From Hylemonella sp. (lineage in GTDB: Bacteria; Pseudomonadota; Gammaproteobacteria; Burkholderiales; Burkholderiaceae_C), in the NCBI GenBank assembly GCA_030695415.1, contig JAUYQZ010000046.1:1-64000 (forward strand): a stretch of 64,000 bases of DNA. Direction: 5' to 3'. Positions 15,642-29,398 of this stretch are shown here, in pieces (positions within the stretch are counted from its first letter, which is position 1; each line of letters opens with the position of its first letter). The position numbers and the translations under genes were made by a program. The notes beneath the pieces are model-generated. The model was not told the DNA's origin, ran no database searches, and worked only from the letters and a program-made list of their open reading frames with translations.

Positions 15642-15872
15642 TCACGGTGACCGGTGCAGGCGCGGTGCGGCCAGCAGGGCGAGGTTTTCCTCGATGGCCA
15701 GGTCCACGTTGCGCCAGCGGCCCTGGAGCTGGGCCTTGACCATGGCAGCCTGCAGCTGCTGCAGGTCCTTCACGGTGGGCGCCACCTTGATCTGCGCAAT
15801 CGCCGCTGCCGCGTTGCCGCCCTTGATCAGCGTGAGCACCTTGCCCGGCCATTCACTTTGTTTGCTCATCAT
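15642..15872 (-). CDS. Hypothetical protein, 76 residues
   Basis: A short soluble frame beginning MMSKQSEWPGKVLTLIKGG and predicted to be largely helical (AAAAIAQIK, DLQQLQAAMVKAQLQGRW). I do not recognise the family. Its position directly upstream of the DUF4389 gene on the same strand suggests a two-gene unit. The second Met (15869) is an equally likely start. Confidence rests on codon character and gene spacing only. Confidence 0.5.
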   Translation of the reverse strand: MMSKQSEWPGKVLTLIKGGNAAAAIAQIKVAPTVKDLQQLQAAMVKAQLQGRWRNVDLAIEENLALLAAPRLHRSP

Positions 15873-15932
15873 CCACCTGTCTGTTCGTCAGGCCCCACTG
15901 TACACACTGCGAGCAGGTATCCTCGCTGGTCA

Positions 15933-16238
15933 ATGAACTACACCGTGAAACTGTTCGACGCCGAGGGCGTTTCCGAGGCACAGCACCGCGAGGCCGTGCT
16001 GCGTTTTCGCCGCGCTCTGGACGACACACTGGGCGACGCCAGCCTGGTGCTGCCCGTCTACCTGGCCTACCAGCGCATCGCCGCCGCCTACGGGGAACAG
16101 CCCGACACCGCGGCCCTGACCGACGCCGAACGCGAGATCGTCGAACAATGGCAGGCGGCCGAGACGGCGGCGATCACCGCGGTCTTCGGCCCGCTGCGCA
16201 ATATGGGCGACGGCATGTACGAACTCAAAGCGGCCTAG
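15933..16238 (+). CDS. Hypothetical protein, 101 residues, ending at an inverted-repeat element
   Basis: A soluble helical protein beginning MNYTVKLFDAEGVS, with HREAVLRFRRALDDTLGD and AEREIVEQWQAAE helices. No family is recognised. Its TAG stop (16236-16238) lies exactly at the outer edge of the left terminal repeat of the element at 16237-16504, so the native C-terminus may have been trimmed by the insertion. Compare homologues for a longer tail. Confidence 0.65.
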   Translation: MNYTVKLFDAEGVSEAQHREAVLRFRRALDDTLGDASLVLPVYLAYQRIAAAYGEQPDTAALTDAEREIVEQWQAAETAAITAVFGPLRNMGDGMYELKAA

Positions 16239-16504
16239 GGCCTGTTCACACTAATTTCTCAAGTGCGAACAGGGTGCAAACGGTGCCAATCTAGGCGCGC
16301 GACGAAGCCCAGACTGGCGGTCTGGGTGAGGAGTGCAACAACGAGTGGCGCCGTTTGCACCCGGTTCCCTCCGGGTTGCGGCCAAAAAAGCCATGCGGGG
16401 TGTTGCGCGTACTGGCCGGGGGTGACCCCGGCGGCGTCCACGCGCCTACCGCATGACTTTTTTGATCCGCAACGCATCTTGAGAAATTAGTGTGAACAGG
16501 CCCT
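16237..16504. mobile_element. Non-autonomous inverted-repeat element (MITE-like)
   Basis: Perfect 27-bp inverted repeats at 16237-16263 and 16478-16504 enclose about 214 bases with no coding capacity. The interior holds nested hairpins: 16272-16288 with 16346-16362 (one mismatch), an inner pair 16308-16314/16320-16326, and 16384-16398 with 16449-16463 (one mismatch). No transposase is present. Both flanking genes end in or against the repeats. Target duplication is not clear: TA flanks the left end and TG the right. A structured RNA is the alternative. Confidence 0.85.
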
Positions 16505-17107
16505 GGCCCCCAGACCGAGCGCGTTGAACACGCGAATGGCGGCCCAGGCGTCGTTGGCCGCATAAATCAGTTGTGCCTCGGTCAATCGCGGATTGGCCCA
16601 GTTGGAGGTGGCGGCCTTCTTGGACTTGAGGTAACGCCGGTTGAAAAGGATGGCGACCGCGCCTTTCACGCCCATGTCCTTGCGGTAACCCCGCTCGCGG
16701 AAGACGGCGTTGAGCTCCAGCACGCCACCGGGCTCCACCCCCAGCTTGGCCGTGATGCGCTTGCGGTCGTCGCCCAGGCCGAAACCGGCCTTGGTGACGC
16801 CGTGCAGGGCCAGCAACTCGGCCACGGGGGCGCGGCAGCCGGCCTCATGCAACTGGAAGATCCAGGCCTGTTCGGGCGTGGCCAGCTGCACGATGTGCGG
16901 GCCGTCGGATACCTCGCCGACACGAAAGGTGGGCTTGGATTCGGTGTCGAAGCCCAGGCAGGGCGCGCACGCGAGTTCAGCGCAGGCCTTTTCGGCCTCT
17001 TTCACGCTGCTGACCAGCCGGATGCGGTCCAGCCCCAGGCGTTCGAAGGGGTCGAGCAGGGCGATCTCTTCCTTGCTCGGTGTGGGCTGGTGGGTGTGTG
17101 TTGGCAT
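16487..17107 (-). CDS. 3'-5' exonuclease domain protein (DEDDy, RNase D-like)
   Basis: A 206-residue single-domain nuclease. Exo I is visible as FDTES (Asp and Glu), Exo II in the AGFGLGDDRKRI region and Exo III as YAANDAW, with the Tyr and Asp expected for DEDDy members. It would trim RNA or DNA 3' ends. No HRDC domains are present, unlike full RNase D. The start MPTHTHQP at 17107 is preferred. The final residues (CSH) and the TAA stop come from the right terminal repeat of the adjacent element. Confidence 0.87.
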   Translation of the reverse strand: MPTHTHQPTPSKEEIALLDPFERLGLDRIRLVSSVKEAEKACAELACAPCLGFDTESKPTFRVGEVSDGPHIVQLATPEQAWIFQLHEAGCRAPVAELLALHGVTKAGFGLGDDRKRITAKLGVEPGGVLELNAVFRERGYRKDMGVKGAVAILFNRRYLKSKKAATSNWANPRLTEAQLIYAANDAWAAIRVFNALGLGARACSH

Positions 17108-17134
17108 GCTTATTTCACGATGCGATATATATGT

Positions 17135-17163
17135 GTGACAAGGCGTTACGGATTGTGTATGCT
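17135..17163 (+). promoter_or_regulatory. Candidate sigma70 promoter
   Basis: GTGACA at 17135-17140 and TATGCT at 17158-17163 with a 17-base spacer, about 70 bases before the ATG at 17236, in the divergent gap. Confidence 0.4.
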
Positions 17164-17235
17164 CCACAAAAACGCCCTGCAAGAGGCTGACCGTCAGAGG
17201 GTTCGAAGTGGTTCAAGGGAAGCAGGGGGTCCAAT

Positions 17236-28599: not shown

Positions 28600-28654
28600 C
28601 GGTCGGCTGCCGGTCGGGCTGGCCGGCGCAGGTCGGCCCTAGGGCCGGTTCACA

Positions 28655-29398
28655 TCAGTTGCGCGCGTAATTCAGCTGGAAGCCGGTGACGCCTTCGAAA
28701 CGCGTCATCTCATGCGAGAGTTCGGAGATGGTCACCATGCGCTGGCGGCTGCGCGCCACGGCAACGAAGGACCACCGAAGGACCTCGGCGTCAAGCTCGA
28801 TGGCGATGGTGCCCGACGCAATGTCGTAGCCGCGGGCCTCGGCCATCTGGCGCAGGGCCGGCTCGCTGGGCAAATAGCCAGGGCGAAAGCGCAGCGTGAT
28901 GGCCACCGCCTGCCGCGAGGGCAGCCAGGCCTCCAGCCTGGATATCCACATCATCGAGACAGCCGACAGCAGCGCCAGCGCCATCGCCGCGCCATAGAAA
29001 CCGACGCCGACCAGGATGCCGATGACCGAGGCTGCCCACAGGGAAGCCGCGGTGGTGAGGCCGCTGATGTTGAAGCCCTCGCGCATGATGACGCCCGCGC
29101 ACAGGAAGCCGATGCCGGTGACGATGCCCTGGATCACGCGCGTGGTGTCGCCCGCCGTGGCAGCCAGCGTGTGGCCCCCGAACCAGCCCGATGAGTAACC
29201 GCCGATCACCGTGAGCGCGGCCGAGGCCATGCAGACCAGGCCGTAGGTGCGCATGCCAGCGGCACGACCGTGGTAGGAGCGCTCGTAGCCCACCAGCAGC
29301 CCCAGCAGCAGGGCGCCCAGCAGGTTGAAGAACACCAGCACATTGGTGGCGACCATGGGGGCCGACCAGAAGCTGGCCAGGGTGTCGAGGGTGGGCAT
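28655..29398 (-). CDS. MgtC/SapB family membrane protein
   Basis: A 247-residue protein with about five hydrophobic segments over residues 20-155. It has the MgtC signature LLGLLVGYERSYHGRAAGMRTYGLV (about 33-57) and the GVIMREGFNISGLTTAASLW motif. A C-terminal ACT-like soluble domain of about 85 residues follows. MgtC proteins inhibit the F-ATPase or adapt cells to low magnesium and acid. No magnesium-transport ATPase is beside it. It is divergent from the ygiQ gene. Confidence 0.9.
   Translation of the reverse strand: MPTLDTLASFWSAPMVATNVLVFFNLLGALLLGLLVGYERSYHGRAAGMRTYGLVCMASAALTVIGGYSSGWFGGHTLAATAGDTTRVIQGIVTGIGFLCAGVIMREGFNISGLTTAASLWAASVIGILVGVGFYGAAMALALLSAVSMMWISRLEAWLPSRQAVAITLRFRPGYLPSEPALRQMAEARGYDIASGTIAIELDAEVLRWSFVAVARSRQRMVTISELSHEMTRFEGVTGFQLNYARN

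Follow-up and report, generated by a model that had tools for sequence, protein, structure and literature searches.

A nearly length-invariant, TA-targeting mobile element with matched arms in Hylemonella and across its bacterial family

Two open reading frames (ORFs) on opposite strands run into a short element in the window, by which we mean the whole 64,000-nucleotide stretch of Hylemonella DNA that was analysed (Table 1). The element is MITE-like, lacks a transposase and occupies 16238..16503 (G16238-C16503), 266 bp in all. An inverted-repeat search returned arms of 32 nt (16232-16263 and 16478-16509) that are 94% complementary at a spacing of 214 nt and hold a perfect core of 27 nt (16237-16263 with 16478-16504). 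The initial annotation had read this core as perfect 27-bp ends. The match is perfect, but its outermost pair, A16237/T16504, is assigned to target DNA because empty sites have one TA and filled sites two. One base of the pair falls in the TA target and the other in its duplicate, which leaves a perfect 26 bp as the terminal repeat proper.

Table 1. Features of the element and its flanks (window positions)
Feature	Position	Strand	Details	Basis
Left terminal inverted repeat	16238..16263	+	26 bp	sequence, repeat search
Right terminal inverted repeat	16478..16503	-	26 bp, perfect complement of the left repeat	
Internal hairpin 1	16269..16365		arms 16269-16291 / 16343-16365 plus conserved top	folds, inverted repeat I2
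Internal hairpin 2	16376..16472		preceded by a small hairpin, 16367-16375	folds
GAACAGG, first direct-repeat copy	16267..16273	+		sequence
GAACAGG, second direct-repeat copy	16494..16500	+	inside right terminal repeat	sequence
Left TA target copy	16236..16237		also forms the first two bases of the TAG that stops the upstream ORF	empty sites G018, G006
Right TA target copy	16504..16505		decayed to TG	empty-site comparison
Upstream ORF	15654..16238	+	stop TAG spans left junction; true start possibly further in	ORF list
Opposite-strand ORF	16487..17182	-		ORF list

The earlier statement that no coding frame lies between the ends is essentially right: ORFs (72, 75 and 90 aa) fall within the element or overlap it, none of them supported by the analyses made, and there is no room for a DDE transposase. 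Lacking one of its own, the element is not itself an insertion sequence (IS). A promoter search found none, and terminator-like sites numbered 1 against 0.6 in shuffles. The sequence is 61% GC, and its fold comprises a terminal stem and two successive hairpins, with z scores of -14.2 (RNA parameters) and -13.8 (DNA parameters); none of 200 shuffles folded equally well in either case.

As had been noticed from the letters alone, both neighbouring genes end on bases of the element. Inside it lies the end of the minus-strand ORF, namely the stop (16487-16489), four complete codons and the greater part of a fifth, and the plus-strand ORF takes from the element the G of its stop TAG (16236-16238), a stop that is also TAG in the empty-site genomes G018 and G006. 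The insertion entered the TA of a stop codon, the element's first G restoring TAG.

In G018 and G006 the window locus is empty, with the flanks joined and the orthologous site reading GTAG with a single TA. G018 has GCGTAGCCCCC where the window has CCTA-element-TGGCCCCC; the duplication is therefore TA, and its right copy has decayed. Two other relatives differ at this place: G015 is without the element, and G013 has about 20 other bases instead. A second locus, L059, is cleaner than the window locus, with one TA in G013 and G009 (empty) against two flanking the element in G015. At L003 the flanks are contiguous in all nine other genomes searched, and G023 has the insertion in common; the letters at the empty site, inspected in eight genomes, are CA in five and others in three, so that TA is not clean. 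L010 is empty in G013 and G000, also without a clean TA. Among 101 near-full copies, TA flanks the element on the left in 55, on the right in 58 and on both sides in 35. The inner A and T, which adjoin the ends, are better conserved than the outer T and A, and a plain TA duplication does not explain this difference. A duplication of 4 bp, CTAG, was weighed and rejected: identical 4-mers stood in 5 of the first 63 copies, and the empty sites of the window locus and L059 have TA.

The element's own genome (a draft of 49 contigs) holds eight near-full-length copies at 80-100% identity, the copies other than that of the window being 80-88% identical to it. Matches, some of them partial, occur in 21 of 60 genomes (own included). 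A search across the bacterial family (E 1e-15) matched 35 of 399 genomes and 23 of 141 genera; at most two candidates were scored per genome, and these figures give presence and not copy number. No match was found in the plasmids and phages searched. The main copy set comprises the 101 near-full copies, obtained by trying 108 loci, 7 of which gave none; 18 genomes contributed, and 94 of the copies belong to the window's genus. A further set holds 35 copies from other genera (38 loci tried, of which 3 were too short). Length is 264-270 bp in 98 of the 101 copies (266-272 counting one target base on each side), and 34 of the 35 copies from other genera measure 267-269 on the latter count. The element has thus inserted at different places with TA duplication and without a transposase of its own, and its copies retain a near-fixed length and one fold, with co-varying arms.

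The MITE proposed in the initial annotation was to be recognized by copies at unrelated loci and by empty sites. Both were found, the copies in the own genome and among the 60 and 399 genomes, the empty sites at the window locus and L059; full-length ISs with closely similar ends, described below, agree with it as well. The proposal that perfect ends imply recent movement is not supported: copies in the own genome are only 80-88% identical, yet most copies are still end-matched. Because most diverged copies retain matched ends, the match does not date an insertion.

Several related copies depart from the common form. The 365-bp element at L148 1471-1835 (G015 C1 1781970-1782334) has the family's TA-flanked ends round a different body, in which no ORF is supported; it is a second MITE type with ends in common. 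G028, from another genus, carries elements (263-267 bp) in which the ends are the same and the bodies have diverged, as well as small forms of about 52 and 147 bp (L142, L146, L147, L143, L144). A copy in G020 (L046 2589-3200) is interrupted mid-way by about 340 extra bases. In three pairs (L057/L067, L055/L295, L080/L298), copies that are not sisters by the tree occupy the same orthologous gap, which suggests repeated insertion into favoured gaps. Elsewhere in the window, CCTAGGGCCGGTTCACATCAG at 28638-28670 resembles one element end; a partner was searched for nearby and none was found.

The closest relatives with transposases are a clade of IS5-family ISs of about 814-827 bp, flanked by TA, whose terminal 14-20 bases are closely similar to those of the element. 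We call them IS427-like by resemblance to the IS427 group, which PMC3281130 lists as 832-865 bp long, with mostly 2-bp duplications and in some members two overlapping ORFs with a frameshift motif. The genome G029 has nine matches to one IS transposase. Eight are IS copies with ends GGGC[CG]TGTTAACAC between TA and TA, 820-824 bp apart. The ninth (L133 381-2531) has IS-type ends about 2,150 apart round one transposase match, and is either an IS copy carrying an insert or a chance pairing of ends. Two overlapping reading frames of the G029 IS match DUF4096, DDE_Tnp_1 and two halves of NF033580 (IS5 family), each half scoring just below the model's whole-protein cut-off. Within the window's genus, G006 has one such IS, which measures 826 bp and shows 86% identity in the second frame. 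Some 3.5 kb from it, at C323 11184-11982, lies another IS5-type transposase that is more remote, at about 30% identity.

To compare ends, a script was run on 51 loci out of the 80 named ones retained from 366 relatives; it gave 46 end pairs, two of them implausible. IS loci of the family search gave an end pair in 26 of 30 cases, with TTAACA at both ends in 26 of 26; these and the loci of relatives may in part come from the same organisms. IS left ends read GGGC[CG]TGTTAACACTAAT, and the window element reads GGGCCTGTTCACACTAAT. Over all 136 MITE copies, TTC[AG]C stands at both ends in 65, TTAAC at both in 10 and a mixture in 1; the remaining 60 have an end outside the two patterns used. GGGCGTG occurs at both ends in four MITE copies and at one end in many ISs. 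The ends of the window element agree over 26 bp, and MITE copies average 19.3 matches in the first 20 bases (136 copies) against 14.7 of 20 in the ISs (n=26). A full-length relative with matching ends, which the initial annotation had named as a check, exists for the TTAAC end type. For TTCAC, the type of this copy, no IS was seen in the loci examined, and inspection by eye found no IS-sized pair of TTCAC ends among the matches listed for 9 genomes.

IS and MITE seldom occur together. The IS was not found in the element's own genome, and within the genus 1 genome out of 26 carries it; an NF033580 search of 12 genomes gave strong matches only in G006. Among the 399 genomes, 40 have the IS and 35 the MITE, and only G063 has both where about 3.5 would be expected (overlap counted by hand at the thresholds used). 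G006, which carries both, lies outside that sample. Two other sources of a parent were considered and rejected. For an IS630/Tc1 element, which would target TA, all PF13358 matches stayed below the cut-off and came from 3 of 10 genomes. Matches to the ends alone proved, where inspected, to be solo palindromes of 39 bp, truncated copies and other pieces, with no ISs among them.

We favour a MITE, a DNA transposon that targets TA and is non-autonomous, from an old family that has spread across the bacterial family; it is likely mobilized by IS5/IS427-type transposases and with its arms kept matched in the mobile lineage (probability roughly 0.8). Mobilization would act in trans, through putative IS5-family (IS427-like) transposases whose own elements have nearly the same ends. 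The mobilizer may alternatively be a lost or unseen sister with TTCAC ends.

The absence of the examined IS clade from most carrier genomes would also suit a system like that of REP and RAYT, in which a single-copy domesticated transposase moves the repeat and an IS with matching ends is unnecessary. The 39-bp solo palindromes, which resemble extragenic palindromes, are a further likeness. Solos are few, however, at 1 to 3 each in 10 of 31 genomes, and they fit deletion between the two GAACAGG repeats, as we infer from the sequence; the ends of the element, moreover, resemble those of a DDE-transposase IS clade. TA duplication and long terminal repeats are not known as features of REP elements. 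The present element differs from these in its TA duplication, its IS5-like ends and its few solos per genome, and we consider a REP/RAYT-like system very improbable.

Among known systems, the element shares with the IS427 group of the IS5 family (NF033580, transpos_IS5_3) closely similar terminal bases and a TA on both sides. It differs in being 266 bp long without a transposase, in ends that are mostly TTCAC and not TTAAC, and in a better mutual match of its ends. ERIC/IRU (127 bp), Correia/NEMIS and RUP are likewise short, non-coding palindromic elements; PMC2229807 describes them as mostly intergenic and most of them as TA-ended, and PMC10969869 places ERIC in Enterobacteriaceae and Vibrionaceae. 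Compared with ERIC/IRU and similar MITEs as described, the present element is longer, has 61% GC, forms a terminal stem and two hairpins instead of one stem-loop, and is near-fixed in length. It is most like a non-autonomous IS5/IS427-type element, and unusual in its near-fixed length, its fold and the matching of its arms. Among the papers listed in a literature search (titles and abstract openings), none described this MITE family, and the letters GGGCCTGTTCACAC occurred in no paper of the collection searched, which is weak evidence of absence.

The arms change in concert. The triplet at 16252-16254 takes over a dozen forms, and its exact complement stands at 16487-16489 in 87 of 101 copies, against a mean of 11.8 and a maximum of 23 in 1000 shuffles. 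On a FastTree tree of the 101 copies we counted 299 both-side changes on 84 pairs (shuffled partners: mean 29.9, maximum 54 in 200 runs); these counts are by parsimony on a poorly resolved tree, and tree error or recombination among copies could inflate all but those of true sister pairs. Doubles fall in adjacent pairs of one branch 30 times, where 13.4 are expected and 500 runs reached at most 22.

Such covariation, together with a length and fold kept across genera, could mark a structured RNA gene or mRNA element under RNA-folding selection, mobile by coincidence. An orientation bias points the same way: between tandem genes, 41 of 52 copies in the 101-copy set lie against the genes and 11 with them (p 3.6e-5), as do 13 against 2 of the 35 further copies, with gene orientation taken from a home-made codon score and not from a gene caller. 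A replication-strand bias is unconvincing (8 of 12 copies in one orientation by the G018 skew, counted by hand; that of G015 is too noisy). Watson-Crick pairs in the top of hairpin 1 broke to G-U 19 times and to A-C 6 times, and across 47 sequences of many genera G-U stands at 81 and A-C at 50 (mostly-G-U pairs left out). On the tree of 101 copies, in contrast, single breaks to G-U (98) and A-C (100) are equal. The ratio of transitions to transversions is 153:111 in double changes and 217:166 at unpaired sites, so that doubles show no transition excess; single changes of paired sites stand at 354:223. Rfam 15 covariance models found no match up to E = 1 in window positions 15800-17000, and sister copies at the same site differ mainly by single-side changes. 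The equal G-U and A-C breaks and the mutation-like spectrum of double changes therefore favour DNA-level arm-to-arm copying over RNA selection, and we regard the RNA reading as quite unlikely. The paired change points to a process at the DNA level that is strand-symmetric for the most part, such as template switching from arm to arm, and the cross-genus excess of G-U over A-C leaves room for an added RNA-level constraint. Compensatory changes, which the initial annotation had named as an argument against a MITE if found in a transcribed, conserved RNA, are present; mobility nevertheless stands, and the changes mostly look DNA-level.

A DNA-level process need not be linked to movement. Ordinary template switching at a long palindrome could keep the arms matched in every resident copy; template switching is proposed to create and maintain hairpins, in RNA genes, in PMC8794818, and the clustering of doubles in adjacent pairs and their mutation-like spectrum are as it would predict. 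The sister copies speak against this. On the terminal branches of four same-site sister pairs, double changes number 2 and single changes 24; the other branches have 303 and 553 (Fisher p 0.0026, with events taken as independent and only 3 of 26 sister events in the terminal repeat). This contrast, 2/26 against 303/856, may be partly artefact, given the tree on which it was counted. When the same pairs are compared directly, 3 double and 22 single changes are seen, mostly on a single side. The sister contrast hints, in our view, at arm matching as a feature of the mobile phase, and we consider upkeep in every resident copy possible but doubtful. One same-site sister pair, L277/L278, has opposite orientations relative to its flanks, probably through inversion at the terminal repeats; IS inversion by recombination between terminal repeats is reported in PMC3004938.

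On the favoured reading of a trans-mobilized MITE, one arm would be re-copied from the other by fold-back template switching in the mobile lineage, or only copies with matched arms would keep moving; after insertion the arms would diverge. A stronger form seems to us unlikely: during the mobile cycle a self-templated hairpin would let each arm rewrite the other, so that the ends stay mutual copies while their letters drift, and selection would keep the 266-bp fold as a DNA structure in many genera.

The element adds a widespread, old and nearly length-invariant MITE family. Its over a hundred natural copies make concerted change of inverted-repeat arms measurable without invoking an RNA function. 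Should the matching of the arms prove to depend on movement, it would be informative about the way in which short palindromic transposons multiply; should it not, the family cautions against taking covariation by itself as proof of a functional RNA.
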